Part shown: piece by piece, positions 12,938 through 64,000 of the stretch
Layout: each line of letters starts with the position of its first letter
Numbering within the stretch: the stretch's first letter is position 1
Source of the DNA: Sphingorhabdus sp.
GTDB taxonomy: Bacteria; Pseudomonadota; Alphaproteobacteria; Sphingomonadales; Sphingomonadaceae
Length of the DNA stretch: 64,000 nucleotides
Assembly (NCBI RefSeq): GCF_023910635.1
Contig: NZ_JAAVVZ010000003.1
Location: 1-64,000, forward strand
Direction: 5' to 3'
Translations under genes and position numbers: made by a program
Notes under the pieces: model-generated
Databases searched by the model: none
What the model was told of the DNA's origin: nothing
The model's input: only the letters and a program-made list of their open reading frames with translations

Positions 12938-12975
12938 GCGCCTTAGCCTTGATTTTATGTTTTAGCACCAACAAC

Positions 12976-13081
12976 GTCATTCCCGCGAAGGCGGGAATCC
13001 ATGGCCAGAGGGATAATTCAACGCTGACGTTGTTGCGCAAGGAACAGTTAGTCCATGGATTCCCGCCTTCGCGGGAATGAC
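12976..13081. repeat. Inverted pair of the GTCATTCCCGCG palindromic repeat (locus 3)
   Basis: Arms 12976-13004 and 13053-13081 are perfect inverse copies (GTCATTCCCGCGAAGGCGGG plus AATCCATGG) separated by 48 bp. They sit 16 bp before the HAD hydrolase start, so the right arm lies in its leader. Confidence 0.92.
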
Positions 13082-13097
13082 AAATGGGGTGTGATTA

Positions 13098-13709: not shown

Positions 13710-13873
13710 ATTTTTTGCTCGCAGAGGCGCGGAGGATGCAGCGATTGGGACATGTTTTCCCCGCCCTCTGCGCCTCTGCGTGAACCAAAAAACATCGGCG
13801 CAAGCCCTTCCATTCATGGCGCGTCTGTGCTTAAGCAACCGTTGAAACTATCTTTTTCAGGACGCCATCTCCC

Positions 13874-19292: not shown

Positions 19293-20608
19293 GGCAGCAA
19301 GTCCGCTGGCAGCGTCGGTTCGCTCAATATTTTCTCCATCCGACGCCACCGCTCGGCCGTATCTGGATTACCGCGTTCGATATAATTGCGGACCAGATCC
19401 TTGCCCCAGCCATAGTTGATCACATAGCTGCGATAATGGTCGGTGAACTTCACCGATTGTTCCGCGCGCGCGGGCGAGAGCAACAGATATTTCTGCGTTA
19501 ACTCAAGTGCCTGCGCCCGTGTAACCGCACCATCGAGATACATTTTCGCGATAGTCAAACGGGCGCCCGATAGCGCTTCGGTCATTTGCTGCATTTTCCA
19601 AAATGCTTGCGCAGAATTGGGGTCGAGGCCAGCGATTGGATATAGAATATCGCGTTCAAACGCCAAGCGTTCTGCGGCAGGGAATGCCAGATCGATGCCA
19701 TAATTGGCGCTGCCTTCGGATAACACGCTGGTCGGGCTGTAGAGCGGATTAACTTCATATTCCTTCCACCCATTTTTGCGCGCGAGCCGTTCTTCGACCA
19801 TCAGGTTGAGAACATGGTGGCCCGGATAGCCTTCGTGACAGCCCAAATCGACCGCACGGCTGATGCGAATCGGCAGGTCGGTGTTGATCTGGATCAGGCT
19901 TTTATAATTGCCCTTATAATAATTATAGCCTGACCAAGGCTTGCCCGTGACAAACTCCATCGCGAACGTCTCGCCCGCTGGCAAACGGATATATTGCGCC
20001 GTGCGGCGCTTACATTCGGCAATTGCGGCGTCAAACACAGGCTGCAACCGGTCTTTGGGAATGACATAACGCTCATTAAAGGCATCGACGCGTGCGGCGA
20101 GCGGACCATCGCCGGGAATCATCGTTTCAAGATTGGCCAATATGGCGTCATAATGCGCCAGAGGTTTCAAGTCCGGCACCGTTGCAAACTGACCTTGTGC
20201 TTCATCGTTGAAGGAAAACTTGCGGCCCTGAAGCATTTGCAACCGTGTGTCGGCAGCCACCAGCACGCCGCGTAACGCAACCGCGCGACGGCGGTCCGAT
20301 TCGGCGCGTAAGGACGGCAACGCTGCATCAATAGCCGCCGTCAGCGCGCGGGCTTCGACGATCAATTGTGCCAGTGATCGCGGATTTGCCTTCGCTACGT
20401 CTTGCAGCGCGGGCGGGCCATAATACGCATCGACATATTCCGCTTCATGCGTGCCCGCCTCAAGGGTCAACCGGATATAGGCATCGGAGATAGCAGCAAT
20501 CGACATCGCCGGTGCGGCGACATTTGCGGGGGCTGGAGCCACTGGCGCAACGGTGGCGCAAGCCGACGCAAGCAAAGCGAGCGGAAGGATGATGTAGCGA
20601 AGATTCAT
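19289..20608 (-). CDS. DUF885 lipoprotein, predicted metallopeptidase
   Basis: 439 residues with a lipoprotein signal (LRYIILPLALLASAC). The family zinc motif is HEGYPGHH (about 260), followed by a glutamate in SVLSEGSANYG some 35 residues later, the pattern of HExxH-like DUF885 proteins. It overlaps the preceding nhaA stop by 4 bp, so the two are probably translated together although a functional link is not known. Substrate unknown. Confidence 0.82.
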   Translation of the reverse strand: MNLRYIILPLALLASACATVAPVAPAPANVAAPAMSIAAISDAYIRLTLEAGTHEAEYVDAYYGPPALQDVAKANPRSLAQLIVEARALTAAIDAALPSLRAESDRRRAVALRGVLVAADTRLQMLQGRKFSFNDEAQGQFATVPDLKPLAHYDAILANLETMIPGDGPLAARVDAFNERYVIPKDRLQPVFDAAIAECKRRTAQYIRLPAGETFAMEFVTGKPWSGYNYYKGNYKSLIQINTDLPIRISRAVDLGCHEGYPGHHVLNLMVEERLARKNGWKEYEVNPLYSPTSVLSEGSANYGIDLAFPAAERLAFERDILYPIAGLDPNSAQAFWKMQQMTEALSGARLTIAKMYLDGAVTRAQALELTQKYLLLSPARAEQSVKFTDHYRSYVINYGWGKDLVRNYIERGNPDTAERWRRMEKILSEPTLPADLLP

Positions 20609-50656: not shown

Positions 50657-52423
50657 ATGAAGCCAGTCCTCGACATAAATCACTCCATCCTTGAACAAGC
50701 CTGGCATTGGCGGGGCAGCGGCACCGATGGCCGCGACCCGGATTTTCAGCCTGACGATCTTGTGACCCAGTTGCTCATGGCGCGCGGTGTCGCGCGCGAC
50801 GATATCGAGCGGCACCGCAACCCGACCATCCGCAACTTCATGCCCGACCCGTCGATCTTTCAGGATATGGAGAATGCGGCACTTCGACTGGCACAGGCGG
50901 TTGAGGCAGGGGAGCAAATCACCGTCTATGGTGATTACGACGTCGATGGCGCGACCAGCGCGGCGCTCCTCATCCGCTTGCTGCGCAATTTGGGGCTAGA
51001 CGCAGGCTATTATATCCCGGACCGCTTGATGGAGGGCTATGGCCCCTCTGGCGAAGCCTTGGTCCGTATTGGCGACGGCGGCAGCCGCTTGATCGTTACC
51101 GTCGATTGCGGAGCCATGGCCTATGACGCCTTGTCGCAGGCCAAGGCCGCTGGGCTCGAGGTCATCGTCGTAGACCATCATAAATGCGCCACAGAGCTTC
51201 CTGAGGCCTTTGCCTTGGTCAACCCCAACCGACTGGACGAAACCGACGCAGCGGCGTCCCACGGGCATCTGGCGGCGGTTGGCGTGGCATTCCTTTTGGG
51301 GGCAGCGTTGATCCGCACGCTGCGCACCCGTGGCTATTTCGCCACCCGGGCCGAACCCAAAATCATGGAGCTACTCGATATCGTGGCCTTGGGCACCGTG
51401 GCCGACGTGGCGCAGCTGCGCGGGCTGAACCGCGCGTTCGTTGCGCAAGGGCTGAAGGTAATGGCCGCGCGCCGCAACATAGGTCTGTCCGCGCTCATTC
51501 AAGCGAGCCGCCTGACCCGCGCACCGATATGCTCCGACCTTGGCTTTGCCTTGGGTCCACGCATAAATGCCGGCGGCCGCGTCGGCAAATCTGACCTTGG
51601 CGTGCGCTTGCTGATCACCGAAGATGCGGTCGAGGCACAAGACATCGCGATGGAGCTTGACCGCCTGAATGAAGAACGCCGGGCGATTGAATCGGTGGTG
51701 CAGGAACAGGCCGAGGCCAACTTGGCCGGACAACATAACCGCGCAGTGGCGTTGTTATCTGGCGAAGGCTGGCATCCGGGTGTCATTGGCATCGTTGCCG
51801 GTCGCATCAAGGAAAAGACTGGCAAGCCATCGATCGTCATTGCCGTCGACGAAAATGGGGTCGGCAAAGGATCGGGTCGGTCCATCGCGGGTGTTGACCT
51901 GGGCGCGGCAATCATTTCGGCACGCGAGGCTGGATTGCTGGTGGCAGGCGGTGGCCATGCCATGGCGGCGGGCCTGACCGTAGCGCGCGATAAAATTGAT
52001 GCCTTGGCCGACTGGCTCGACGCGCGGCTGGCAACAGATGTCGCCAACGCATCGGGGACCAAGGCGTTGCTGATCGACGCCATTGTCGCGCCGCGCGGGC
52101 TGAACCCCATTTTTGTCGACGCCATGGAGTCCGCTGGACCTTATGGCATGGGCTGGCCCGGGCCGCGGGTGGTTACAGGGCCATTGCGAATCATCAAATG
52201 CGATATTGTCGGCAAGGACCATGTCCGCGCTATTGTGGCAGGCGACGATGGCCAGTCGTTCAAAGCCATGGCATTTCGTCAGGGCGAGACCGTTCTTGGT
52301 CAGACCATGCTCCACGCCGATCGCGGTCGCCGCTACTGGTTTGCAGGCCGCGCCAAGACCGATGACTGGGGCGCAACGCCAAAAGCGGAGCTGCATGTCG
52401 ACGACATTGCCTTTGCCGACTGA
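50657..52423 (+). CDS. recJ: Single-stranded-DNA-specific 5'-3' exonuclease
   Basis: 588 residues. DHH phosphoesterase motifs: VYGDYDVDGATSAAL (about 91-105), VTVDCGAMAYDAL, VVDHHKCATELP (about 172-183), and the DHHA1 end VAGGGHAMAAGLTVA (about 431-445). Acts in recombination and mismatch repair. The last chromosomal gene before the tRNA-associated island. Confidence 0.94.
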   Translation: MKPVLDINHSILEQAWHWRGSGTDGRDPDFQPDDLVTQLLMARGVARDDIERHRNPTIRNFMPDPSIFQDMENAALRLAQAVEAGEQITVYGDYDVDGATSAALLIRLLRNLGLDAGYYIPDRLMEGYGPSGEALVRIGDGGSRLIVTVDCGAMAYDALSQAKAAGLEVIVVDHHKCATELPEAFALVNPNRLDETDAAASHGHLAAVGVAFLLGAALIRTLRTRGYFATRAEPKIMELLDIVALGTVADVAQLRGLNRAFVAQGLKVMAARRNIGLSALIQASRLTRAPICSDLGFALGPRINAGGRVGKSDLGVRLLITEDAVEAQDIAMELDRLNEERRAIESVVQEQAEANLAGQHNRAVALLSGEGWHPGVIGIVAGRIKEKTGKPSIVIAVDENGVGKGSGRSIAGVDLGAAIISAREAGLLVAGGGHAMAAGLTVARDKIDALADWLDARLATDVANASGTKALLIDAIVAPRGLNPIFVDAMESAGPYGMGWPGPRVVTGPLRIIKCDIVGKDHVRAIVAGDDGQSFKAMAFRQGETVLGQTMLHADRGRRYWFAGRAKTDDWGATPKAELHVDDIAFAD

Positions 52424-52489
52424 ATTTGCGCCAACTTGGCCTTGACGGGGGCAGAACGAATCCGTAAAGGCGCGGCTCGCCAAGCGATT

Positions 52490-52564
52490 GGCCCCTTCGT
52501 CTAGCGGTTAGGACGCGGCCCTTTCACGGCTGAAACACGGGTTCGATTCCCGTAGGGGTCACCA
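52490..52564 (+). tRNA. tRNA-Glu (anticodon TTC)
   Basis: 75 nt including encoded CCA. Acceptor GGCCCCT/AGGGGTC with one G-T, D arm CGTCTAGCGGTTAGGACG, anticodon stem CGGCC/GGCTG with loop CTTTCAC (TTC), T arm CGGG-TTCGATT-CCCG. The integrase gene lies about 170 bp downstream, making the 3' half the probable attachment site. Confidence 0.97.
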
Positions 52565-52736
52565 TCCGTTCTGATATTCCTTGGAATACTGGGCGGTTTT
52601 GGGTATCAGTTCCCTGTCTACTGCGTTTCCAGTACATACCGACGGTACATAATGGACATTCAGCCCGTGCAGCCGAGGGTGTAATATCGGCAGGGTCGGC
52701 TCAAATTTGGTGGAGCTGGAACCGGGGTACGCCGCC

Positions 52737-54455
52737 GTGAGCGGAGTACGCGCCCCACACCTTCAACGCCGTGATGGCGTCTATCATCTGAGAATTCGGG
52801 TGCCGGACGCAATTAGGCCGCAAGTCGGCAAGACGGAGCTCGTTCGGTCTTTAAGGACCTGTTCGTTCCGCAAAGCTCGTCCTCTTGCAGCCTTACTCAC
52901 GGCTCTGGTGATGGAGGCTTTTGAAATGATTAAGACAACTCAAATGACGACAAATGATGTCCGTAAGCTAGTTCAGGACATTTTCGTGAACGTAATTGCA
53001 GAGCAGGAGGCTGTAGGGGCCTATGTTGCGCAAACTGACCAAATAGACGATGAAATGCGCGAGCAACTTTTCATGTCTCAAGATCGCATCGCGGACTTAC
53101 GAAATCAGATCGCGCTGACGAAATTTGACGGTGAAGTTCGGTATCATCTCCGCAATCTCCTTACACGCAATGGCTTTGGACAAGATGAACTGAGTCAAGC
53201 ACGCATCGACGATATTGCGAATGGTGTTGCAAGAGCTTTGATTGAGCAGCAGCGGTTTTTCCAACTTCGCATTGACGACAGGCTGGCGCACTTTTCTCCT
53301 GCTGACAGCCTATTTGTGTCGGCGGCTTTGGGAGTGACTGAGCAGGGCGTATTGCCCACCTTCAAAGGCCCGCAACTTGGCGATGCAGTTGAGAAGTATC
53401 TATCTGTTTACCGCAGCGTGTGGAAACTCAAGACTTACAAGGCTCGGGTTTGGCAACTTGGCTACCTCGTCGAGTTTTTGGGAGCACAGCGACCAATTGA
53501 AAGCATCCAGCCTAGCGATATCCGTAACTATCGGGACGCGCTTTTGACGCTTCGTGCGAACCACGGTTTTGCCGCTAGTCAGAGCTTTGCAGCTAAGCAG
53601 ACAGCAAATGCTAACGCCCGAATAAAATTGAAGACCGTAGAACTGATTTTTCAGCCCATAAAGACCTTCTTAAAATGGGCGGTTTCGGTGGAAGGGCTAA
53701 TTGAGGTGAACCCCGCACAGTCGATCAAGGTGGTTGTCAAAAAAGAGAAAACATTTGTTCGAGTGCGTCGGTCATTTGTGAAATCCGATCTGGAGCGCCT
53801 TTTCTCCTGCCCTCTTTTTATCGGCTGTCTTTCACCACATCGACGGTTTGTCGTAGGCGGCAAGGTATTCCGGGATGCAAAGTATTGGTTACCTATCCTT
53901 GGCTATTTAACGGGAGCCCGGCTTGGTGAACTCGTTCAGTTGGCAATTGGAGATGTGCGTGTCGAAGATGGCATTTCCTATATTGATATCAACGAGAAGG
54001 CGCTCGTTGGGGTTGAGACCAAATCTGTGAAGTCTGGAGCAGGTCATCGTCGGGTACCATTACATCCTGATTTGCTCTCTCTCGGGTTTATGGAGTTCGT
54101 CGCAAAAAGGGCAAAACAGGACAAGGCAGACGTAAGACTATTCAAGGATGTACCGTTCGGAGTCGATGGTCAGGCTTCGACTGAGTACAGCAAGATATTT
54201 GGCCGGTTAATGGACAAGGTTGGCCTTACAGACCCGCAACTCGTTTTCCACAGCTTCCGGCACACTGCTGAAGACGCCCTAAGGGATGCAGGTTGTCAGC
54301 CCTACGTGATCGACCGGATTATCGGTCACGCTGATAACACAATGGGCGGCAAGTACGGGTCAGGGGTTTCGCTAAGTGTTTTGGCTGAAGCAGTGGCGTC
54401 TATGAAGCTCCCGGTTAGGCTCCCCAGCCTGTTGCCGACCGCCAAAAAAGACTAG
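52737..54455 (+). CDS. Tyrosine-family site-specific integrase
   Basis: About 570 residues. An N-terminal DUF6538-like segment (HLQRRDGVYHLRIRVPDAI), a long helical middle and a C-terminal catalytic domain with the full set: R in GARLGELVQLAI, K/H region GAGHRRVPLHPDL, HxxR in HSFRHTAEDALRDAG, H in IGHADNTMGG and the nucleophile Y of GKYGSGV. Sits next to tRNA-Glu, the presumed target. Start uncertain: GTG 52737 has GGGG upstream; TTG 52707 and GTG 52710 are possible. Residues 60-200 show no recognised fold. Confidence 0.88.
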   Translation: MSGVRAPHLQRRDGVYHLRIRVPDAIRPQVGKTELVRSLRTCSFRKARPLAALLTALVMEAFEMIKTTQMTTNDVRKLVQDIFVNVIAEQEAVGAYVAQTDQIDDEMREQLFMSQDRIADLRNQIALTKFDGEVRYHLRNLLTRNGFGQDELSQARIDDIANGVARALIEQQRFFQLRIDDRLAHFSPADSLFVSAALGVTEQGVLPTFKGPQLGDAVEKYLSVYRSVWKLKTYKARVWQLGYLVEFLGAQRPIESIQPSDIRNYRDALLTLRANHGFAASQSFAAKQTANANARIKLKTVELIFQPIKTFLKWAVSVEGLIEVNPAQSIKVVVKKEKTFVRVRRSFVKSDLERLFSCPLFIGCLSPHRRFVVGGKVFRDAKYWLPILGYLTGARLGELVQLAIGDVRVEDGISYIDINEKALVGVETKSVKSGAGHRRVPLHPDLLSLGFMEFVAKRAKQDKADVRLFKDVPFGVDGQASTEYSKIFGRLMDKVGLTDPQLVFHSFRHTAEDALRDAGCQPYVIDRIIGHADNTMGGKYGSGVSLSVLAEAVASMKLPVRLPSLLPTAKKD

Positions 54456-54485
54456 CGGCATTCAGGTAGTGTCTCAGTTTGAAAT

Positions 54486-55196
54486 TTAGCCTTTTACGCC
54501 TTTTGACCAAGCGCCTTTCGATGGAGGCTTTGGAACTTTAGTTTTCGGGCGGTCATTAGGGTGTATCCAGTGAGCCGGTGGGTCATATTCGGGAGGGCGA
54601 TTGATCATGCCATTTGCCCCGTCAACTTGTGAGTCCATTACACAACGCTCAATCATTGCGACTGATATATTTCTACGTGGTACACCAAGGCCTTTATAGT
54701 CCGTTGGATAATTTTGACCCGGCGGAATGGCGGCAAAAAGCAATTTGCCTTTCGGTGCTAAGCGAGCATTAAAAAATTTCGCGGTAGCAACTTGGTCAGA
54801 ATCGGCGGACAGAAGAAACGCTGCGTCATATTCATCGTCTTCGCCGTCACAGATGACAGACAGTGCAACATTTATGTCTGATTGTTTTTCAGAATAGACG
54901 CCGTTGGCCGGGACATGATGCCCTCGCAGAATTTCAACGCCTCTTGCTGAAAGAGCGTTGTTAAATGTTATGTGGCGCTCAAATGAACCCGGTATGTGAT
55001 CGGGAACAGCGGTGCAAAAAACAACTTTCACAAGCTTTAGCCCCTCAGGCTTGCAAAGCATTTCGCCAAGTTTCCAGAGGCACGCCCATTTAAGATGATT
55101 CATTCCTGTTTGATGAATTGGATGATAAAGGTTGAAGCCATCTACATATAGAGCTCCTCTGCGCTGATTTTGATCTTGACGTTTTTGATCGCTCAC
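54486..55196 (-). CDS. NYN-domain (PIN-like) predicted RNase, cargo of the transposition unit
   Basis: 236 residues. The LabA/DUF88 NYN fold shows GALYVDGFNLYHPI (first Asp, about 14-27), an acidic SEKQSDINVALSVICDGED (about 103-121) and AAFLLSADSDQVATAKFF (about 128-145), the acidic residues of a metal-dependent nuclease. C-terminus Pro/Lys-rich and basic. Located between the left end of the unit and the transposase remnant, it is the largest intact cargo gene. RNase activity inferred from the fold. Confidence 0.8.
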   Translation of the reverse strand: MSDQKRQDQNQRRGALYVDGFNLYHPIHQTGMNHLKWACLWKLGEMLCKPEGLKLVKVVFCTAVPDHIPGSFERHITFNNALSARGVEILRGHHVPANGVYSEKQSDINVALSVICDGEDDEYDAAFLLSADSDQVATAKFFNARLAPKGKLLFAAIPPGQNYPTDYKGLGVPRRNISVAMIERCVMDSQVDGANGMINRPPEYDPPAHWIHPNDRPKTKVPKPPSKGAWSKGVKG

Positions 55197-55240
55197 GCTA
55201 TATGGCCCCTATCGATGCCAACTTGTTCACTTGTTGGCGG

Positions 55241-55270
55241 AAGCCCCGGCAATGCCGGGGCTTTTTCTTT
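55241..55270 (+). terminator. Strong hairpin between NYN gene and transposase remnant
   Basis: AGCCCCGGC-AAT-GCCGGGGCT (55242-55262) followed by TTTTTCTTTTT on the plus strand. All genes of the unit run on the minus strand, so this would stop transcription entering from the integrase side; on the minus strand it is a hairpin without a T-run. Confidence 0.75.
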
Positions 55271-55555
55271 TTAGACTTGTTTCTTGTATGGTCCACGCTT
55301 TTTCGGGGCCGGGGCAAGTTCATCAATCTTAACGATAACATCATCAAGCGACCATAGGCGGTCGGTAATGCCAGCGGCCATAGCTGGCGACACGCGCAGT
55401 GTTTTGTGGATACGAGTGAAATTGTAGAACACGAAATACAATGCCAGCGCGTGAATGTGGTTATCCAGCTTCTTTGAAAAGGCATTGGTCAAGCGGATGA
55501 AGCGGCGCATGGACATACGCATTGTAAGGTTCTGGCGCTCGACATAGCTTGTCGG
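55271..55555 (-). pseudogene. C-terminal remnant of an IS1-like transposase
   Basis: About 95 residues survive: TSYVERQNLTMRMSMRRF, TRLTNAFSKK-type sequence, YNFTRIHKTLRVSPAMAAG and a basic KKRGPYKKQ end. This is the last third of the IS1-like DDE transposases common in alphaproteobacteria; it contains the final catalytic glutamate region only. The upstream two thirds are replaced by a small unrelated gene. Confidence 0.75.
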
Positions 55556-55731
55556 CGTTCGGGCGTCATGTTTGCGGCGCGTTTCTTGCCTCCAAGACTC
55601 CCAAGCTTTGCAGCAGCATTTTTCGTTGTATCGCTCGTGTCGTCTATTTCGCCGGTCGCAATCTTGCCGATCATAACGGCAAGGCCGATAGCGTCGGCTG
55701 GGCGCTTTTGCCCGTTTGGTCCTTTAGGCAT
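55489..55731 (-). pseudogene. Small conserved hypothetical gene truncated into the transposase remnant
   Basis: Starts MPKGPNGQKRPADAIG (ATG 55731) and continues LAVMIGKIATGEIDD, GSLGGKKRAANMTPERR, a short protein type I have seen as a free-standing hypothetical ending in a basic AEIAKKAA-like tail. Here that tail is lost at about 55555 where transposase sequence begins in another frame, giving an aberrant end. Its ATG overlaps the end of the preceding 61-residue gene by 8 bp. Confidence 0.55.
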
Positions 55732-55909
55732 TGTGAAGTTCCAGAAGCTTTTCGATGTCGTCGGCAATTCCGCTCACAAGTTTTAGATAGGACTGGGTTC
55801 GATCCGTATCCCCGACCCGCCACCGTGCGCTTCCGCCGTATCTAGAGCGGCGCTGTTCCATGAAGTAGAACATGCGCTGCAATTCAGCAATTTCGTCTTC
55901 TCGGGTCAT
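55724..55909 (-). CDS. Small helical hypothetical protein
   Basis: 61 residues, REDEIAELQRMFYFMEQRRS then SYLKLVSGIADDIEKLLEL, two amphipathic helices. A good GGAGG-type site (complement of 55911-55915) precedes the ATG. First gene inside the right end of the unit, whose shared end sequence (55916-55998) likely carries the promoter. Unknown function. Confidence 0.6.
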   Translation of the reverse strand: MTREDEIAELQRMFYFMEQRRSRYGGSARWRVGDTDRTQSYLKLVSGIADDIEKLLELHNA

Positions 55910-56007
55910 GCAACCTCCTATGCTTTGCGCTAAGCATATAGGAACGGCGGCTGGAATGCGATTGGGCTATCGGTCAAAATTCAAACTGAGACACTACCGG
56001 CATTCAA

Positions 56008-56202
56008 CCGAGCTTGCACAATGAAATGCAATGTCGTATGTACGTAATGCTCGGCAGTCATATGAAATGACCGTAGCCACAAGCGTGCTTGTCGAGAGTT
56101 TCCAACAGCAATCTGTTTTGGTCCATTCGGATCAGGGGGCTCTCAGATGTCTTATCTTTGCAATTATTGCAGCACTTCAGTGCACATCGCAGCATCGTTG
56201 CG
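56008..56202 (+). ncRNA. Candidate structured RNA/leader upstream of the HTH-RT operon
   Basis: Between the target duplication and the HTH gene I count at least seven short hairpins in 195 nt: an outer stem CCGAGC/GCTCGG (56008-56013/56049-56054) enclosing TTGCA/TGCAA and CGT/ACG, then GTCAT/ATGAC (56057-56071), ACAAG-CGTG-CTTGT (56079-56092), AACAG-CAAT-CTGTT (56104-56117), TGCAA-TTA-TTGCA (56159-56171), GCAC-TTCA-GTGC (56172-56183) and CGCA/TGCG (56188-56202). Each is weak alone; the density is unusual. Could be an RT template or substrate RNA, a riboregulator, or recombinase sites. Confidence 0.35.
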
Positions 56203-56214
56203 GGGGGCAGAGTG

Positions 56215-56412
56215 ATGGCTCGTCATATACCCGGCCATCTCAGCGAACTTGACCTTGCTCTAAAGCTTGGCATCTCAATTTGGGGGCTAAGAGCATGGCG
56301 TCGTCGAGGATATGGGCCGTCATCTGTGAAATTCGGCAAAAGCGTATTCTATCGTGAAGACGAGGTAGCAAAGTTCATTGATGCGCCGGTTGGGCATGGA
56401 GCGTCGGAATGA
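56215..56412 (+). CDS. Small MerR-type HTH DNA-binding protein (excisionase-like)
   Basis: 65 residues. DLALKLGISIWGLRAWRRRG (about 12-31) followed by YGPSSVKFGKSVFYREDEV is the winged-HTH pattern of excisionase/AlpA-like proteins. ATG 56215 is preceded by GGGGGG. The stop overlaps the RT start by 4 bp (ATGA), so the two proteins are made together. It may regulate the RT, or act with the integrase or serine recombinase as a directionality factor. Confidence 0.78.
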   Translation: MARHIPGHLSELDLALKLGISIWGLRAWRRRGYGPSSVKFGKSVFYREDEVAKFIDAPVGHGASE

Positions 56413-57818
56413 CACAGCATGCACGTCCTTTCGAACCACCCTTTACGTTGGCACAGGTGTTAAACAGGGCCAGGTTCGTACTTGGAGTGGATAAGTTACC
56501 CGAGGACATCGCATCAGAAGTTCGTCGAATGACTGCTGGGTATTTGGGGCGACTACACCGATTACAGCGCGTCGAATTTGCTGGGGGGCACTACCGCTCT
56601 CGGGACACTCTTCATCGTATGCACTCGTCATTAGCTGCCAAGACAATTTCATTTTTGCTGGCATATCCAAAGAATAGAGCTCCGATGACGTGGGATGAGG
56701 TGAAAACGCAATCGAAGCGGGTCAATGTTCTCCGTCCCTCTGGAGAACTGGTCATTTCCTGGGAACAAGCCAAGCGAACACTGGGCGTAAGGACAATATG
56801 CGCTTTTGGCCCAATCTCTCGTGCTGCCCAGGAAATGGTCAGCCACATAATATTCGTGGTGGCTGGTCCCAGCCCCTATGAGTTCGCCCAGTCGAGGCGA
56901 GGACGGGATGCAGCGGCCCGAGTTTCGTTGCATAATATCAAGCATAAAGGAGTAAGATGGTTCGGTCTGGCTGACGTGAGTAACTGCTTTCCGTCAATTA
57001 ACCGCGAAATGGTAAAGCAGGCGCTCCCGTTCCTGCCGTGGTCGATCATCGACGCAACCATTTTCATCCACGACGACACAGACATATCAGCAACAAGTCT
57101 CAACGGAGACAAAGCGAACAATAAATCAGTGAACGCGATCCGACAGAGTTTACCGCAGGGATCGTTGGCTTCGCTCCTCGTCACCAGCAAAGTATTACAG
57201 CCGCATCTAGATGCGCTAAGTGCTCCGCTGATTATCATACACGTCGACGACGTGATGATTGGTGCAAAGACGGAAGAGCAAATCCAAGCGAACTTAATTG
57301 CCCTGACTTCTTCAATGAAGAAGACCTCTGGAGGATCGCTCCATCTGACAACTCAGGTTTGCAAACTAGGCGATCCAGAAATGGACTATCTGGGTTATAG
57401 GTTCCGACAGGAATGGATGCTGGCAGGTGGTTTTGGACGAGCATTTCCTGCCAAACGGTCATTCCGACAGTTGCATGTTCGTATAGCCCGGAAATTACTG
57501 CTCATTCCCGAAAAGTTTTGGGCAGAGACGATCGAAATAGAGTGCGCTCGTTGGATACGCTCCTTTCCTGCTTGGGCAGGCCGATTTCGGTCGGAGTATT
57601 TTGCGATCCTACATTGTGAGTTAGATATGCTTCCAATGCTGTATCGCGTTCGAGCTGCAATCACAGAAGCAAAATATAAATGGGCAAGTTTTTCTGAAAT
57701 GACTGATTTTCTGACTAGCACCGCAAATCTGCTAGCAGATCAAATGCCGCGCCTTTTCACCGAGGGCGGGCCTAGCAAGTTACTTAAGGGTGCATCGATC
57801 TGCCCGGCGTTAATCTAA
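56409..57818 (+). CDS. Divergent reverse transcriptase of unknown group
   Basis: 469 residues. RT motifs in order: RTICAFGPISRAAQEMVSHI (about 127-146, fingers), WFGLADVSNCFPSINREMV (catalytic Asp of motif A, about 185-203), RQSLPQGSLASLLVTSKVL (motif B, about 243-261), IIIHVDDVMIGAKTE (motif C, HVDD in place of YADD, about 273-287) and MDYLGYRF (motif E-like, about 325-332). The last ~130 residues are basic and helical (WIRSFPAWAGRFRSEYF) with no HNH or maturase signature. No retron VTG motif, no DGR IGNxTSQ. Probably a defence-type or other single RT; substrate unknown. Confidence 0.85.
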   Translation: MTQHARPFEPPFTLAQVLNRARFVLGVDKLPEDIASEVRRMTAGYLGRLHRLQRVEFAGGHYRSRDTLHRMHSSLAAKTISFLLAYPKNRAPMTWDEVKTQSKRVNVLRPSGELVISWEQAKRTLGVRTICAFGPISRAAQEMVSHIIFVVAGPSPYEFAQSRRGRDAAARVSLHNIKHKGVRWFGLADVSNCFPSINREMVKQALPFLPWSIIDATIFIHDDTDISATSLNGDKANNKSVNAIRQSLPQGSLASLLVTSKVLQPHLDALSAPLIIIHVDDVMIGAKTEEQIQANLIALTSSMKKTSGGSLHLTTQVCKLGDPEMDYLGYRFRQEWMLAGGFGRAFPAKRSFRQLHVRIARKLLLIPEKFWAETIEIECARWIRSFPAWAGRFRSEYFAILHCELDMLPMLYRVRAAITEAKYKWASFSEMTDFLTSTANLLADQMPRLFTEGGPSKLLKGASICPALI

Positions 57819-57829
57819 CCTTTCAAATC

Positions 57830-57921
57830 CACATTCAACAAGGAATGTGACGCTTATGGACTGTACAGCGAAGTCCCTAAAAGTCAGAATGTCCCACACA
57901 TACCACCCTCTATTCGGGACA
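57830..57921. promoter_or_regulatory. Hairpin-rich gap between RT and serine recombinase
   Basis: CACATTC-AACAAG-GAATGTG (57830-57849), GGACT/AGTCC (57858-57876) and TGTCCC/GGGACA (57890-57921) fill the 107-bp gap. The last pair ends 5 bp before the recombinase ATG and could be its operator or crossover region; the first could end the RT transcript. Roles inferred from position. Confidence 0.4.
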
Positions 57922-57925
57922 GTGC

Positions 57926-58606
57926 ATGTTTTACGGCTATATACGCGTTTCAACTGACCGACAGGCTATTTCTGGACTTGGTCTTGACGCTCAGCGTCAA
58001 TCAATCGAGCTATATGCCGCTCAACAGGGTACTACGCTTACAGAAATCTTTGTCGAGACAGAAAGCGGGACGAGAAATGACCGGCCCCAACTACATGCCG
58101 CAATAACTTTGTGTCGAAAGCATAAAGCGACGCTCGTTATTGCCAAGCTGGATAGATTAGCCCGCAATGTCGCATTCGTATCAAGCTTGATGGAAACAGG
58201 CGTCGAGTTTGTCGCAGTTGATGCGCCTTTTGCTAATCGGCTTATGATCCATGTGCTGTCGGCGGTAGCTGAATGGGAACGTGAACAAATTTCTGTTCGA
58301 ACTAAAGCAGCCCTCACTGCTGCAAAGGCCCGAGGCGTCAAATTGGGTACTCACGGTGCGGTGCTAGCATCCCAAAGAAAAGCTGAAGCATATGCTCGCG
58401 CTCGGACGTTACAGCCATACATTGTGCGCGCCCAATACGATGGTTGCACCAGCCTGCGGCAAATCGCAGGTCATTTAAACTCGGCGAGCGTGGCAGCGCC
58501 CGGCGGGGGTTTATGGCATGCTAGTAATGTCCATCGAGTTATGAATCGCCTAAATCTGCCGGGTACCGATCAAACCTATTCCGACGGCACGTCGCCATTT
58601 AGGTGA
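57926..58606 (+). CDS. Serine recombinase (resolvase/invertase family)
   Basis: 226 residues. Catalytic serine in YIRVSTDRQAISGLGLDAQ (about 4-22), LVIAKLDRLARNVAFV (about 71-86), SAVAEWEREQISVRTKAAL (E helix, about 111-129) and a C-terminal HTH (TSLRQIAGHLNSASVAAPGG, SNVHRVMNRL). It is the small resolvase type. Directly after the RT operon, same strand. Confidence 0.9.
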   Translation: MFYGYIRVSTDRQAISGLGLDAQRQSIELYAAQQGTTLTEIFVETESGTRNDRPQLHAAITLCRKHKATLVIAKLDRLARNVAFVSSLMETGVEFVAVDAPFANRLMIHVLSAVAEWEREQISVRTKAALTAAKARGVKLGTHGAVLASQRKAEAYARARTLQPYIVRAQYDGCTSLRQIAGHLNSASVAAPGGGLWHASNVHRVMNRLNLPGTDQTYSDGTSPFR

Positions 58607-58764
58607 TTGGGATGCCGTTTACATCGTTAGATAGCCCCGAACTCATTACTATAGCATTCGCCTGGAAGCTTCAGCTAACCTAGCTGAACGAATGGCAAAA
58701 ACTGCCGGCTTGAACTGCTGGCGTTCATGACCGAAATGTTGTGGGACGCAGACATCTAGAATTG

Positions 58765-59097
58765 TTAGCGCTCAAACTCCCAACGCAAGAAAGGTCGGGC
58801 CGCTTGAATAAAATCCTCGAAGCGAGAATAATCCCGTTCGCCAAATTTTGATTGGATTGCGCTCTTTATCTGCACGTCATCCAATCGATCAACGATCAGA
58901 AATTGATCACAAAAACCAGTCTGATCGTGACCTAGGTGCTCCAAGGCCCAATGTCGATTGGACACATTTACAAAGAAAAGATCAAAACCCTTTGCGTCAC
59001 TTTCTCCGATTTCGATGATGCAGTGGCAGGTAGCTGGCTTGTGCACGCCCTCCTCAAAATCATCTATGAAATCGACTGACCGGACTTCGATCTTCAT
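58765..59097 (-). CDS. Small acidic protein, weakly like immunity protein family Imm8
   Basis: 110 residues. The pattern KIEVRSVDFIDDFEE ... CHCIIEIGESDAKGFDLFFVNV ... HWALEHLG recalls Imm8 immunity proteins (short beta protein with IGxxxxxGxxxFxxxV and a W-L segment). No toxin gene is adjacent, so it may be an orphan immunity gene. Identification is tentative. Confidence 0.5.
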   Translation of the reverse strand: MKIEVRSVDFIDDFEEGVHKPATCHCIIEIGESDAKGFDLFFVNVSNRHWALEHLGHDQTGFCDQFLIVDRLDDVQIKSAIQSKFGERDYSRFEDFIQAARPFLRWEFER

Positions 59098-59151
59098 TGC
59101 TATTCTCCTGATCGATTTCGGTCGAGATAATTCCTACGGAAATATATCGGT

Positions 59152-59460
59152 TTAATCTTCATCGTAGAATATGTGCCCGCGATTGTCGGGCTTCAGTAAT
59201 CGGAAGATGGGTGATGGCGTAACTTCTTCTGCATTCAGTTCCAACTTAACTTGGTTAGAATTGAGCCAACCGGTTTGCCGCTCAAGGTTATCGCGGACAC
59301 GGCGGAAAGCAGTGTTCTGAGCGGAACTGATCGAGGATGCCAATACGAAACGGTGACAATAGAAACCCAAAGGTTGCCATGTGTCATCTACGTCATTATC
59401 TGACGTTACGGCGGTGCACCAATCCAATCGGCCATGGATCACGACATAGTAACATTGCAT
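59152..59460 (-). CDS. Hypothetical protein
   Basis: 102 residues, 54 bp upstream of the Imm8-like gene and on the same strand. Contains WQPLGFYCHRFVLASSISSAQNT and no recognised domain, signal or membrane segment. AT-richer than the core genes. Possibly co-transcribed with the Imm8-like gene. The 243 bp beyond it (59461-59703) show no gene. Confidence 0.5.
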   Translation of the reverse strand: MQCYYVVIHGRLDWCTAVTSDNDVDDTWQPLGFYCHRFVLASSISSAQNTAFRRVRDNLERQTGWLNSNQVKLELNAEEVTPSPIFRLLKPDNRGHIFYDED

Positions 59461-59703
59461 TCAAACCAACATATACGGCGCGTCCACAAAAACAATACCG
59501 CCAGAAGCCGAACGTCCGCTTTGTTGTCGTATCCTGAAAGTCTGCTTTTGTTGCATATTGTCGGAAAGCAGACCTTCGTTCAGCTGGTGAACCAACGGCA
59601 GCATAAATGGCTGGGAAGTCCTAGACGTCGCCATTCAGTGTAAAGCGATAATGGCAAAAAAAGAGGCAGTTTTCAGGATTACCGCCGCATATAAAAAAGC
59701 GCT

Positions 59704-60078
59704 TCATTCGACGCTTGAAGCTTCCGTAGCTCGCCTTGGTGGCCTTCGATTGAGTGCGTGATCAACAAGCTTTAATACCCACTCCAAATCTGAAGTATCG
59801 AGAGACGCAACGCGACTGACAAGTTTGCTTAGTGGGGCAGCTGACACCTCCTGCCCAGCTGCAAAATGATTAACGCCAAAAAGATCACGCACTTCTACGT
59901 TCAGCGCCGAAGCAATGCCTGCAAGCGTTTCAAAGCTTGGTGCGGATGAACCGCGTTCAATTCTTCCGACTAGCTGGACTGACCTCTCGATACGATCTGC
60001 AAGCTCAGCTTGGGTAAACCCCGCAACTTCCCGATGATGTCGGACAAGACTGCCTACTTGAACTCTGAGGTCAGACAC
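59704..60078 (-). CDS. XRE-family transcriptional regulator
   Basis: 124 residues. Classical HTH-3: GSLVRHHREVAGFTQAELAD, RIERSVQLVGRIERGSSAPS, FETLAGIASALNVEVRDLFG. The C-terminal half is helical and unassigned. Divergent from the exported protein gene at 60197, which it may control together with itself. Confidence 0.85.
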   Translation of the reverse strand: MSDLRVQVGSLVRHHREVAGFTQAELADRIERSVQLVGRIERGSSAPSFETLAGIASALNVEVRDLFGVNHFAAGQEVSAAPLSKLVSRVASLDTSDLEWVLKLVDHALNRRPPRRATEASSVE

Positions 60079-60196
60079 TAACTCACACCTAAAATTTAAT
60101 TGCAGTTATGTGCCAAAACTACCTTTACGCTTGACGATGAACGAGCAACTGTGGTTGCAATCAATTGCAAAATATACAATAGGATTGGATATTCAG

Positions 60197-60643
60197 ATGA
60201 TTTCAAGACAATTAGTTGCGACAACAATTTTATTGGGTCTGACGACGGCTGGCCAGGCTGCTAAACCTCCCAAATATAACTCCGATGCTCCGCTCCCTGC
60301 TGAAGAAGTTTACCGCCCAATCATCAAAGGCATGATCGATGGTATTCTCCGCGATCCCTACAGTGCAGTGTATAAATGGGGGGCCCCATACCAGATCACA
60401 TGCAAAAAGGATTTGTTTCGGACCGCGGAGCGATGGCGCGGTTGGGCGATCAACATTAACGTAAACGCCAAAAACGCGTATGGTGGATACGCTGGAGCTT
60501 CAGACTATTACGTCATGTTTATGAGTGATGGGATAAAAGACGATATGGAGCTGCACACTGGGTTTGCAGCGTTTGATTACAAAATCTGTCGCAGGGAGAA
60601 TTGGGGACCCGACAGCATTCCAACCTCCCCGCCAAAACAATAA
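60197..60643 (+). CDS. Exported hypothetical protein
   Basis: 148 residues with a signal peptide (ISRQLVATTILLGLTTAGQA). Mature part contains IIKGMIDGILRDPYSAVYKW, ITCKKDLFRTAERWRGWAIN and NAKNAYGGYAG, a layout seen in small periplasmic proteins of unknown role. ATG 60197 chosen over 60110 because it begins the signal peptide. Divergent from the XRE regulator. Confidence 0.65.
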   Translation: MISRQLVATTILLGLTTAGQAAKPPKYNSDAPLPAEEVYRPIIKGMIDGILRDPYSAVYKWGAPYQITCKKDLFRTAERWRGWAININVNAKNAYGGYAGASDYYVMFMSDGIKDDMELHTGFAAFDYKICRRENWGPDSIPTSPPKQ

Positions 60644-60738
60644 TATTGTAATAAAAATAGATAGTTGCTCTGAATTTTATGTTCATCTGAGCACATAAAA
60701 GTTAGGCTTTAAGGCAACATATAGCCTTGGAAAACCTA

Positions 60739-61251
60739 ATGATTTATACAATTGGATACAGCAATCGAAGCTTACCTGAGTTTCTTAACGAACTGACCAG
60801 CAGGGGCATAGCGCAACTATGGGATGTCCGCTCATCGCCATGGTCGCGCAACGCTGCATTTAACGCGTCTAAGATCGAACAATGGTCAGAAAGCGCAGGT
60901 ATTTTCTATCGGCAATGCGGTACAATTTTTGGGGGCAGGTCAGAAGTGGCACTGGATGACCCAATTTACATAGATTTGCTGAATGAGCTTATAATTGCGG
61001 CTAAACGGAACCCAGTCGTAGTGATGTGTGCTGAGGGCGATCCAGCCAATTGTCATCGCTCCTGGGCAATTGGTGCTAGCCTGCTTCTTAAATGCAATGT
61101 GTCGGTGATAAACATCATGCGAGACGGGACTACCGAAGATATTGGAGCTAGCATCCGACGAATCAAGCGAAGGAATTTTACGCCGGCTATTTTGTCTGCA
61201 TTAGATGGAATGGAGCCTTTCGCCTGGCCGGAAAAAAATTGGTTTTGCTGA
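60739..61251 (+). CDS. DUF488-family protein
   Basis: 170 residues. IYTIGYSNRSLPEFLNEL (2-19), LWDVRSSPWSRNAAFN (about 30-45) and VVVMCAEGDPANCHRSWAIG (about 97-116) are the three DUF488 signatures; the CAEGDPxxCHR motif carries two conserved cysteines. Function unknown for the family; members turn up in phage-defence and mobile islands. ATG 60739 chosen over TTG 60727. Confidence 0.85.
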   Translation: MIYTIGYSNRSLPEFLNELTSRGIAQLWDVRSSPWSRNAAFNASKIEQWSESAGIFYRQCGTIFGGRSEVALDDPIYIDLLNELIIAAKRNPVVVMCAEGDPANCHRSWAIGASLLLKCNVSVINIMRDGTTEDIGASIRRIKRRNFTPAILSALDGMEPFAWPEKNWFC

Positions 61252-61372
61252 CAAACTCTCCGTAAACTACAAAATCCTGTAGCCTTACGAAATCCTTGGT
61301 TTTTTGGTTTCACACCCTACAAATGTTGTATGATTAGAGCTTCAAAAACTAGCTAATGCAGGCGCAAAGTAT

Positions 61373-61927
61373 TCATGGTACTGCCTTGGCAAACGCTTCT
61401 TCAGGCGACAATCCTTCGCGGATCATTTCGATGATTTTATTGCGTTTGCTTTCGAGACCCTTAGGAATTGATGCGCGGTTACCCAGATAATATTCGGACA
61501 TTAAATTGCGTGCGGCTTCGCTGCTAATTTTTGGCCTAGACCGAGGTTTTATATTCTTTCGCAAGCTGGATATATGAAGATTAAATTCGTCTGAAACGGT
61601 ACTCCAATCGAATGCTGCCACCTCCGCCCGAATGCGTTCCGCATCAGAACCGAATGCGACACCAACTTCACCTGTTCCTGCGTTTACGATTAGGCTGGTA
61701 AGGTTTGGGAGTTTCTGCTCGGCCAGAAAAATTCTTACAACGTCCAGCCGACGCCCCAATGAAATTGGGATTGCCGATTGGACAGCATCATTGTTTGGAA
61801 ACCGAACCTTTGCTTCATCAAGCAATGCTCCGTAGGTTAGCTTTTTCACAGGCGATTGCCGAGCGCACTCCACAAGAATAGGGTAAAATGCGGCAGCAAT
61901 GGTGACGTCAGTTTCCGTAACCTTCAA
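61373..61927 (-). CDS. Hypothetical protein
   Basis: 184 residues. N-terminal half is compact (DVTIAAAFYPILVECARQS, LTYGALLDEAKVRFPN, LIVNAGTGEVGVAFG), C-terminal half basic and helical (SSLRKNIKPRSRPKISSEAA, KRNKIIEMIREGLSPEEAF), suggesting nucleic-acid contact. No family recognised. The following 419 bp (61928-62346) are AT-rich and hold no gene that I can support. Confidence 0.55.
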   Translation of the reverse strand: MKVTETDVTIAAAFYPILVECARQSPVKKLTYGALLDEAKVRFPNNDAVQSAIPISLGRRLDVVRIFLAEQKLPNLTSLIVNAGTGEVGVAFGSDAERIRAEVAAFDWSTVSDEFNLHISSLRKNIKPRSRPKISSEAARNLMSEYYLGNRASIPKGLESKRNKIIEMIREGLSPEEAFAKAVP

Positions 61928-62346
61928 AATCTGGTTCTTTCACAAAATAAAAACGCGTTACAAATGGACTACCATTAATCGCCTTAAGATACCAAAACGC
62001 CAAATTAAGGGGTATCTAGGGCATACACGGCTGCATTCATAATTCCCCAACTCCCCACGGCATTAAGTAACTCAAAGTGAAAATCAGAGAAGTTACGTTC
62101 GCATTGCTTTGTCGATCATGCTAGAGCGCGCTACCATCGGCCAATTAGCTAAGTGCACGATACTCGGAAAAAAGGTAGAGAGTTAAGAGTTCAAAGGTCA
62201 TTTCCTCCCGAACTGCCTGACAAATCATTGGGCCGTTGATAAACTTCGTCAGCTTCAACAAGCATTTTGGAGATCGTGTTTATCGACACGTTTAAACTAA
62301 GATGAACTCTTCAGTTGGCTGTTTTGTCCGTAGGGACCTTTAGGCT

Positions 62347-62556
62347 TCAATCGGCTTCCATCCACGCGATGAACTGATCCCACGAGACTTCAACGCCGTT
62401 CTTTTTGTGAGTTTTCCCAGCGCACCACACGAGTTTCGCTTTTGTTATTGTGAGGTCACCCAGCCTAGTCTCGCCATCAGGGGAATAGACATCAAGCTGC
62501 ATTCCTTTATTCTTAAGCTGCTGCTCTGCGTTCAGTTCTGTGATCCAGACGTTCAT
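62347..62556 (-). CDS. Small hypothetical protein at an IS1-like end
   Basis: 69 residues, NVWITELNAEQQLKNKGMQL then SPDGETRLGDLTITKAKLVW and a VSWDQFIAWMEAD end. AAGGAGG lies 6 nt before the ATG at 62556. Its upstream region (62557-62657) is homologous to the right end of the unit at 54465-55998, so it occupies the same place relative to that end as the 61-residue gene there: it is another cargo gene of the same IS1-like family. Confidence 0.7.
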   Translation of the reverse strand: MNVWITELNAEQQLKNKGMQLDVYSPDGETRLGDLTITKAKLVWCAGKTHKKNGVEVSWDQFIAWMEAD

Positions 62557-62574
62557 ATTGCCTCCTTGTCTTCC

Positions 62575-62657
62575 GCTACACCTATAGGAACGGAGGCTGG
62601 AATGCGATAGAGTATAACTATTCGTAACCCCTAGATATTTTAAACTGAGACAATACC
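62575..62657. repeat. Second copy of an IS1-like right end, without visible partner
   Basis: TATAGGAACGGAGGCTGGAA then GCGAT, and 62641-62657 AAACTGAGACAATACC, match 55938-55998 of the transposition unit. No inverted left end (GGTATTGTCTCAG) was found between here and either side in the window, so this is a solo or truncated element. Confidence 0.7.
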
Positions 62658-62675
62658 GCAGAGGGTAACAAGCGC

Positions 62676-63680
62676 ATGAACGAAAGAACAATCTGGGGCA
62701 TCCACATGGCCCGCGATCATGGCACGTTGCCGATCGACAAAGGCTATGTAGCAATTGGCTGGCATAGGTTGGGCGATTTTGCCCAAGTCGCTCCGACCCG
62801 TGAGGCTTTTAAGGCAGCGTATGTCCAAACTTATCCAAATGAGAAGCCCGGCAAGGTTCCGGTGGCGGCGGGGGTTGCGTATCGCTTTGCAGTTGAGATG
62901 AAGCCGGGTGACATTGTGGTATACCCATCGAAGCAGGACCGCATGGTCAACATTGGTGTGATCGAGGGCGGTTATGAGTATGTTGCGAACGCTCCACTTG
63001 AATGCCCCAACCGCCACAAAGTCAAATGGCTGAAGCATATAGCGCGGACATCATTTTCGCAGCCGGCATTGAATGAGATTGGCTCGGCAATAACCCTTTT
63101 TAAAGTTAGCTCGAACGCTGATGAGTTTTTGGCTGCGTTGGAAGGCGAGGCATTCGAGGTCGAGGATATCGACGAAGCGAGCGCAGAACTTGTGTCAGCA
63201 CAGGTAGAGGAAACGACCGAAGATTTCATCATCAAGCGGCTCAAGAACAACCAGACGCCGTTCCAGTTTGAACATTTCGTTGCCCACCTGCTCAAGTGTA
63301 TGGGGTATCATAGCAGGGTCACACAGGCATCGGGCGACGGCGGGATCGATATCATCGCCCACCGTGACGAGCTTGGCTTTGAACCACCCATCATCAAAGT
63401 GCAGTGTAAGCAAATCCTATCGACGATCGGCAGGCCAGATGTGCAGCAACTTCATGGCGCAATTGAAAGTGGCGAGCACGGCTTATTCGTATCTTTAGGA
63501 ACATTTTCGAATGACGCACGGACCTTTGAACGCACTAAGCCAAACTTGCGTCTTATCGATGGCAGCGATTTAGTGGAGCTTATTTATGCTCACTACAGTC
63601 AATTCGAACCACGCTATCAAATGCTGCTCCCACTCAAGCGGACATATATACCGGGACCAGCGATTGGCGAAAACGAGTAA
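62676..63680 (+). CDS. Mrr-type restriction endonuclease
   Basis: 334 residues. The N-terminal 130 residues contain MKPGDIVVYPSKQDRMVNIG and IEGGYEYV, a barrel like PUA/EVE-type modified-base readers. The C-terminal Mrr catalytic domain has FEHFVAHLLKCMGYHSRVT, GDGGIDIIAHRDELG (Asp) and IIKVQCKQ (QxK), the PD-(D/E)xK nuclease core, then DVQQLHGAIESGEHGLFVS. Likely a type IV enzyme cutting modified foreign DNA. The start lies 19 bp beyond the IS1-like end at 62657. Confidence 0.85.
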   Translation: MNERTIWGIHMARDHGTLPIDKGYVAIGWHRLGDFAQVAPTREAFKAAYVQTYPNEKPGKVPVAAGVAYRFAVEMKPGDIVVYPSKQDRMVNIGVIEGGYEYVANAPLECPNRHKVKWLKHIARTSFSQPALNEIGSAITLFKVSSNADEFLAALEGEAFEVEDIDEASAELVSAQVEETTEDFIIKRLKNNQTPFQFEHFVAHLLKCMGYHSRVTQASGDGGIDIIAHRDELGFEPPIIKVQCKQILSTIGRPDVQQLHGAIESGEHGLFVSLGTFSNDARTFERTKPNLRLIDGSDLVELIYAHYSQFEPRYQMLLPLKRTYIPGPAIGENE

Positions 63681-63740
63681 CGGGCTGACGCGGACGTTTG
63701 AATCCAAGAGTAAAGCTTGTCTTTTCTGCTCATGATTCAG

Positions 63741-63992
63741 CTACAGTATTGGATTTTTGTCCCGTTGAGCTAAGCAGGCTGGGTCTCTATCATTGAACAG
63801 GTCCTTAAACTGATCATCGGTGAGCTCAGTGAGCCCGCATAGTTCGTGGTAACTTGGGTAATCGACATATTGCCAGCCAGCGTCAGTATGTTCCAGGCTG
63901 TGGAACGGGCCAACGAGACAACTTTTAGCGCAGTAGTAGTGGGACACGAACGGATGAGTTTCCCATTCTTTTTTGATAAAACCAGCGCCCAT
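63741..63992 (-). CDS. Hypothetical protein
   Basis: 83 residues, KKEWETHPFVSHYYCAKSCL, VDYPSYHELCGLTELTDDQF, with three cysteines and no recognised domain. ATG at 63992 lies 8 bp from the window edge, so an upstream extension or partner cannot be excluded. Confidence 0.45.
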   Translation of the reverse strand: MGAGFIKKEWETHPFVSHYYCAKSCLVGPFHSLEHTDAGWQYVDYPSYHELCGLTELTDDQFKDLFNDRDPACLAQRDKNPIL

Positions 63993-64000
63993 TGTGCCGG

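Follow-up and report, generated by a model that had tools for sequence, protein, structure and literature searches.

The locus examined here, within a stretch of 64,000 nucleotides from Sphingorhabdus sp. (hereafter the window), raises the question of what a reverse transcriptase (RT) of uncertain group does beside a small helix-turn-helix (HTH) gene, and whether it belongs to the machinery of the island around it or to the defence genes that the island carries. A sequence-only reading had described the two genes as an operon with an unclassified RT. Both open reading frames, of 65 and 469 aa, were confirmed (Table 1), joined by a 4-bp overlap (ATGA), and the quoted RT motifs (ADVSNCFPSI, LPQGSLASLL, IHVDD, and MDYLGYRF) were all found. 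The longer protein matched Pfam RVT_1 (E 5.6e-11; 43 bits against a cut-off of 29.6), identifying it as a reverse transcriptase. Estimated dN/dS values for four RT pairs were 0.27, 0.17, 0.25, and 0.23, the last three being rough because dS was near saturation (1.8-2.0), indicating that the RT is not a chance open reading frame.

The window HTH protein scored 20.6 bits with Pfam HTH_17 (cut-off 27) and that of the closest relative, in genome G731, also fell below the cut-off (24.6), while the HTH proteins of G630 (40.6), G525 (45.0), and G515 (39.2) exceeded it; the window protein further matched the excisionase and regulator family PHROG 66. An HTH_17-like gene adjoined the RT in 11 of the 18 clade members defined below, so that co-occurrence upheld the proposed operon as a recurring unit. 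A different small protein stood at the HTH position beside the RT in G615 and G1209, the one in G615 having no Pfam match. Upstream of the HTH gene, a Y-shaped hairpin is common to the window and G731. As a family-wide non-coding RNA this hairpin was rejected, its covariance model finding 2 of 20 loci (window and G731) and a chance-level match (E 2.5); it may serve the pair as a regulatory or DNA site. A family-wide RNA structure was not found by covariance model in the 20 loci. The tRNA was the sole Rfam match in the window at the gathering threshold, and none of the five sub-threshold matches in 54400-59000 was credible.

Table 1. Features of the window element (coordinates are window positions; strand in the third column, a dot where none is assigned).
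Feature	Position	Strand	Evidence or remark
tRNA-Glu (ttc), integration site	52490..52564	+	Last 17 bp (52548-52564) repeated at contig 67442-67458
Tyrosine integrase (DUF6538 + Phage_integrase)	52707..54455	+	PF00589 6.6e-12; PF20172 3.2e-16; 66% identical to that of G606, at the same tRNA-Glu site
Probable IS-like insertion carrying an NYN-like gene, about 1.5 kb	54460..56003	.	28-nt imperfect terminal inverted repeats
Y-shaped hairpin, common to the window and its closest relative G731	56094..56144	+	Not matched in the other 18 of the 20 loci
HTH_17/excisionase-like small DNA-binding protein, 65 aa	56215..56412	+	HTH_17 below Pfam cut-off; phrog_66 excisionase 1.7e-5
Reverse transcriptase, 469 aa	56409..57818	+	Asp189 in motif A; QG 250-251; HVDD 278-281; LGY 328-330
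Small serine recombinase, resolvase/invertase type	57926..58606	+	PF00239 1.6e-30; just downstream of the RT
Imm8-type immunity protein (cargo)	58765..59097	-	Pfam
XRE-type regulator, kept with the module in G731 and G606	59704..60078	-	HTH_31 44 bits; 68% identical to G731, 53% to G606
DUF488 protein, present as well in the elements of G731 and G606	60727..61251	+	Pfam and PADLOC scans
Mrr-type nuclease, PADLOC candidate PDC-S02 (cargo)	62676..63680	+	Pfam 5.2e-29; PADLOC 462 bits

Relatives of the RT were few. A search at E <= 1e-8 gave matches in 7 of 396 genomes of the order, and a search of the phylum in 1 of 398; a five-row RT profile (E <= 1e-15) matched 12 of 397 genomes of the family and 2 of 289 of the class, the window's own genome being included each time and being the single match in the phylum. 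A scan of genome contigs yielded nine loci, one of them G606 again, from which those of Rhodalgimonas, Aestuariivita, and L016 were used, while the weaker L018-L022 were left out of the tree and all counts. Such a rare and patchy family is as expected for a mobile gene. In the five weaker loci, a search over about 4.5 kb gave no match to an integrase, an HTH protein, or a serine recombinase. Two of them, L021 (5877-13100) and L022 (56-7482), encode exceptionally large proteins (981 and 1099 aa) that match this RT over a short stretch. In both loci a hypothetical gene comes next, then a MoxR-like ATPase (by eye) and another protein, and the set may represent a separate conserved RT system. Two others, L019 (7485-9068) and L020 (7491-9065), encode related RT-like proteins of about 525 aa, the L019 gene lying directly after genes resembling type I hsdM and hsdS (by eye).

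To place the family, an unrooted tree of 38 RT domains (234 columns) was built from 18 relatives, the window RT included, and 20 references, with no UG or Abi sequences among them. The references comprised eight group II RTs (seven annotated as ltrA, the eighth recognized by its GIIM domain), four CRISPR RTs, three DGR RTs (Brt, one beside an Avd gene, and one picked by similarity to Brt), three retron RTs confirmed by retron models (349, 575, and 541 bits), and two ungrouped RTs. The 18 relatives were split off by a branch with support of 100/98, recovered in 200 of 200 bootstrap trees, and the group II, CRISPR, DGR, and retron references all fell outside this clade; group II and CRISPR rows intermixed (two changes each). 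Within the clade, the window, G731, G606, G630, and G618 formed a subgroup (support 100/97), and the exact places of G808 and G1209 are unsure because of their long branches.

The best PADLOC match of the window RT was the CRISPR RT model (34.5 bits), followed by UG19 (19.1) and UG17 (17.8), and ten further members reached at most about 60 bits, with generic and CRISPR RT models. The best UG scores among these 11 members were 49.5 bits (UG4, G550) and 46.5 bits (UG17), so no member was assigned to a UG class by a strong model match. Retron models gave at most 13.8 bits for the window RT and at most 24.3 among the matches listed for the other members scanned; genuine retron RTs encoded in the same genomes reached 349-575 bits with their own models. 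Retron RTs are marked by NAxxH and VTG motifs, neither of which is present in the window protein, and the retron reading was rejected on these scores, motifs, and tree positions. A DGR was likewise rejected, since no template/variable repeat pair was found in 52400-64000 (the last 3.4 kb of the element lie beyond this range) and the DGR references stood outside the clade. As far as tested, the RT is indeed unclassified, being apart from all four reference groups and scoring low with every RT model tried. An AlphaFold model built from four sequences was not reliable (mean pLDDT 46.7).

The earlier statement that none of the known groups fits held for membership, but by profile the clade stood nearest to group II intron and CRISPR-Cas RTs. 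Among solved structures, a profile of 17 members matched the group II maturase 6me0 (3.6e-28) best and Cas6-RT-Cas1 7kft (4.7e-22) second, and then the group II RT 7uim (1.1e-20), GsI-IIC (4.4e-14), the 328-aa RT 8ub7 (8.4e-13), G2L4 (1.4e-9), and retron Ec67 (6.9e-9); the UG/DRT chains Drt3a (0.016), UG15 (0.37), and Drt2 (0.42) came far lower. The clade shares with group II intron RTs (LtrA/GsI-IIC type) the RT1-RT7 order, the PQG motif, and the start of the thumb, but differs in that the window RT scored 30.5 bits with the equivalog model TIGR04416 (cut-off 300) and had no Pfam match to the maturase domain GIIM, which a reference group II RT does match, and in that no group II intron RNA exceeded the Rfam gathering threshold in the window. 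A sub-threshold intron RNA fragment at 55890-55927 (15.6 of 55.2 bits) was taken as chance. A CRISPR-associated RT (RT-Cas1 type), in spite of the profile and PADLOC matches, was rejected, since no Cas1 or Cas2 match occurred among the window proteins scanned and CRISPR references lay outside the clade. Thus, the clade is group II/CRISPR-like in sequence, yet a member of neither group.

The sequence-only reading had called the Tyr-to-His-Val change at the YxDD box rare, but the HVDD box of the window RT is not diagnostic, because motif C varies widely across the family: the clade contained HVDD, FVDN, YLDD, HGDD, FADD, YADD, YCDN, YEDD, YSDN (also in L016), YADN, WSDN, YGDN, and YVDD. The motif A Asp and the first motif C Asp (Asp189 and Asp280 in the window), by contrast with this variable box, were invariant in 17 of 17 aligned members. 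The last box residue was Asn in 9 of the 18 members, requiring at least four changes on the tree of the 18. In G2L4, group II, and HIV RTs, the second motif C Asp is directed not towards the active site but away from it (PMC12337344), and by this analogy the xxDN enzymes may be catalytically active. The repeated replacement of this Asp by Asn under what looks like purifying selection provides a natural test of the residues that an RT needs.

These data also bear on two other explanations. The RT could be a relic, that is, a degenerate group II intron RT that hitch-hikes and decays, as the HVDD and xxDN boxes and a partial locus in G618 might suggest; with dN/dS at 0.17-0.27, both key Asp residues kept, and the window devoid of group II intron RNA at the Rfam cut-off, this is highly improbable. 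Alternatively, a repair-type RT like G2L4 would mend or anneal DNA ends (end joining or gap filling) after excision or failed integration. G2L4 is, like the clade RTs, a free-standing group II-like RT with a variant box (YIDD), it is among the profile matches of a family whose nearest sequence relatives are group II-like, and the branched Val before DD in the window RT recalls the Ile of G2L4, a branched residue that favours strand annealing there (PMC12337344). However, the G2L4 match was weaker, the clade boxes differ from YIDD and vary in the residue before DD/DN (V, L, G, A, C, E, or S), and G2L4 is described as a host-cell repair enzyme (PMC12337344), whereas the clade genes lie on mobile elements among recombinases, making such a role distinctly improbable.

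The genes around the RT were then considered. The tRNA-Glu, the Mrr-type nuclease, and the DUF488 gene were present as the sequence-only reading had described them, but the tyrosine integrase, the serine recombinase, and the second copy of the tRNA end had gone unmentioned. Because the 17-bp 3' end of the tRNA recurs downstream on the contig, the RT lies within an element of about 14.9 kb that runs past the right-hand limit of the window; an integrase beside the tRNA and a direct repeat of its 3' end together identify an integrative element at a tRNA gene. The segment between integrase and HTH gene is probably an insertion sequence, judging from its terminal inverted repeats; the corresponding gap is 248 bp in G630 and 302 bp in G731. 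Its NYN-like gene scored 19.4 bits with NYN, below the Pfam cut-off, and 80.7 bits with PADLOC HEC-09. One end of this segment (55925-55999) has a partial copy at 62571-62658 inside the island.

The RT relatives likewise occur in elements inserted at tRNA genes (tRNA-Glu, -Gln, and -Leu). The window, G731, and G606 share the gene order integrase, HTH, RT, serine recombinase, XRE, and DUF488, with a second HTH gene preceding the first in G606; the order in G630 is integrase, HTH, RT, and serine recombinase, while G618 has an integrase fragment, RT, and XRE, with no serine recombinase found nearby. The orientation of the serine recombinase relative to the RT varies among loci. The G606 element lies, like the window element, at tRNA-Glu (18-bp repeat; about 15.7 kb between copies), and that of G731, arranged in tandem with a second island, at tRNA-Gln (repeats of 25 and 17 bp; about 15.3 kb). 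The elements of G630 and G618 adjoin tRNA-Tyr; a search of the loci of G630, G618, and G537 (20 and 18 kb) detected no repeat of a tRNA end. The cargo of the G606 element includes a second RT, assigned to retron type III-A by model (575 bits; from L009 19366 into L046, joined 19366-20502).

Several further observations were made in these loci. A 507-aa open frame in L016 (5344-6867) consists of about the first 225 residues of a tyrosine integrase and a clade RT, as a deletion product or a fusion. An MFDIW protein of about 395 aa, weakly similar to MgsA_C, recurs in tRNA-Tyr elements (L010 4907-6091, L011 7106-8314, and L054 4446-5633), and more distant forms lie near the RTs of Rhodalgimonas and Aestuariivita. 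In L044, two copies of an apparent IS630-like transposase (by eye; 3522-4681 and 12634-13775) flank genes of nucleotide-sugar/polysaccharide type, one copy lying just outside the right tRNA repeat.

For the HTH, RT, serine recombinase, and XRE genes, G731 exceeded G606 in sequence identity to the window, and G630 was lower where the gene was present; serine recombinase identities, for instance, were 65% (G731), 61% (G606), and 54% (G630), and also 56% (G537) and 51% (G615). The integrase ranked differently (G606 66%, G630 47%, and G731 26%), which means that the module has moved between integrases. G537 has the same integrase, serine recombinase, and XRE genes with a 372-aa protein (L054 7800-8918) in the HTH-RT slot, so the RT is replaceable in the element. 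The slot protein had no Pfam or PHROGs match, none in plasmids or viral contigs, and two insignificant PDB matches, and it was not found in 36 further genomes sampled from its genus. A resemblance, by eye, to a Rep_trans replication initiator was rejected, PF02486 weakly matching elsewhere in that genome and not at the slot.

Beyond chromosomes, IMG/VR gave no relatives by RT or integrase patterns, phage records gave no RT match, and plasmid records gave one weak RT match annotated as a group II gene. The serine recombinase family was common in IMG/VR (at least 585 relatives), and no RT of this clade occurred in the 80 of these loci examined; proteins related to the window serine recombinase were present on 16 plasmid records (E <= 1e-40), of which 13 are predicted to be non-mobilizable.

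The association of the RT with recombinases was quantified in 14 genomes, in which 119 integrase and 43 resolvase matches were counted (G515 was left out beside its near-copy G602, as were Rhodalgimonas, Aestuariivita, and L016). A tyrosine integrase lay within 5 kb of the RT in 11 genomes and a serine recombinase within 2.5 kb in nine, against 0.43 and 0.09 of 14 expected under uniform random placement; this null ignores the clustering of recombinase genes in islands, so the association is clear but the exact odds are not to be taken literally. At least one of the two recombinases was near the RT in 13 of the 14 genomes, the exception being G618 with its integrase fragment.

The strongest single result, from one pair of genomes, is the comparison of G515 and G602, which belong to different genera. 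Both elements sit at tRNA-Leu(TAA), with imperfect repeats of the tRNA end of 67 bp (92.5%) and 57 bp (82.5%), respectively. Over a block of 4,227 bp they are 98.2% identical, compared with 70-78% for the chromosomal sequence aligned on the tRNA side. Within this block lie the integrase, HTH, RT, and serine recombinase genes, together with a region adjoining the integrase that could code for another small protein. The cargo comprises IetA, IetS, and a phosphoesterase-like gene in G515. In G602 it comprises restriction-modification genes, namely a C5 DNA methylase and a nuclease resembling Eco29kI (27.7 bits, short of the 30.8 cut-off), along with a GHKL ATPase and two further genes. Between the block and the far repeat the two elements are unlike apart from a stretch of about 275 bp (73%) at the distal end, and nothing aligned beyond the far repeat, which leaves the boundary there less secure than the one at the tRNA. 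Since the cargo was replaced while the RT stayed, the RT, judged by sequence in this one pair, is part of the element backbone and not exchanged cargo. The earlier suggestion of an anti-phage or mobile-element role is thereby sharpened: the RT belongs to a mobile-element backbone in G515 and G602, outside the exchanged defence cargo, and may yet have a direct antiviral function.

Many non-intron bacterial RTs studied so far are antiviral, and the HTH-RT pair might accordingly form an immune module of DRT or retron type, in which cDNA made from nearby RNA would trigger or restrain an effector; it would have become established on the element as a means of superinfection exclusion or selfish protection. 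The defence genes carried by the elements are in keeping with this, as is a slot holding either the RT or another protein (G537), which fits a defence hotspot. This rival must be taken seriously, since a tyrosine recombinase that is dispensable for immunity also neighbours the RT in two of the three DRT10 (UG17) loci tested in PMC12632851. Nevertheless, the UG17 model matched clade members weakly, no SLATT match was found among the 17 window-element proteins scanned (Pfam), UG scores stayed well below those of true retron RTs with their own models, no shared non-coding RNA was found, and a BLAST comparison of the relatives' neighbouring genes with the core genes revealed no recurrent effector-type gene next to the RT across the clade. 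Furthermore, the defence cargo of G515 and G602 differs while the RT is kept with both recombinases. An antiviral role of this kind, the main rival of the reading favoured below, is possible but less likely than not.

We give roughly even credence to a different role, in which the RT would perform DNA synthesis in the element's own life cycle, as part of the core of a small integrative element. By sequence, this core comprises the tyrosine integrase, HTH, RT, and serine recombinase genes (and XRE in the window type), located at tRNA genes with differing defence cargo. The HTH protein, as an excisionase or regulator, would tie RT expression to activation of the element, the tyrosine integrase would excise and insert a circle, and the serine recombinase would resolve multimers. 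The RT may copy element nucleic acid into DNA, using as template the element's transcript or, once the circle has been excised, one of the circle's ends or gaps. This would help the element to copy, complete, or keep itself outside the chromosome, and the RT would do the job of Rep or primase in other islands. This life-cycle role is favoured by the G515/G602 block, the recombinase enrichment, the movement of the module across integrases, the low dN/dS, the invariant Asp residues, and the separate cargo retron RT in G606. Against it stand the slot swapping in G537, which also resembles a defence slot, the reduced G618 locus, the variable orientation of the serine recombinase, the bare L018-L022 loci, and the failure to find a family-wide RNA structure.

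A more far-reaching version of the life-cycle role, which we regard as unlikely, is that the islands are bacterial integrative retroelements, whose own RT and tyrosine and serine recombinases would copy element RNA or single-stranded ends and insert the DNA at tRNA genes. They would then be, by convergence, a prokaryotic equivalent of DIRS and similar tyrosine-recombinase retrotransposons, with exchangeable antiviral cargo.

P4-type and other tRNA-integrated islands with an AlpA-like excisionase are among the closest known systems. They resemble the present ones in an integrase at the tRNA 3' end, a small HTH_17 gene, variable defence cargo, and a size of about 8.5-16 kb, but here the core includes an RT and a serine recombinase, and no Rep, primase, relaxase, or capsid match was found among the element proteins scanned. 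To our knowledge, bacterial RTs with known roles, group II introns apart, are host or defence tools. No description of the RT clade or of its recombinase linkage was found in the open-access literature searched, which did not include two older surveys or a 2022 UG/Abi survey, so an earlier description is possible. Table 4 of PMC8934634 gives no RT class with an integrase, HTH, or serine recombinase as a frequent neighbour; XerC, Phage_integrase, and HTH_XRE are named there as neighbours found occasionally, and HTH_17 as the neighbour of one UG23 call. If the proposed life-cycle role is true, an RT clade partnered by site-specific recombinases and an excisionase-like protein would extend reverse transcription to a new use, namely the life cycle of genomic islands, and would make testable how small islands without a recognized Rep, relaxase, or capsid gene persist outside the chromosome.
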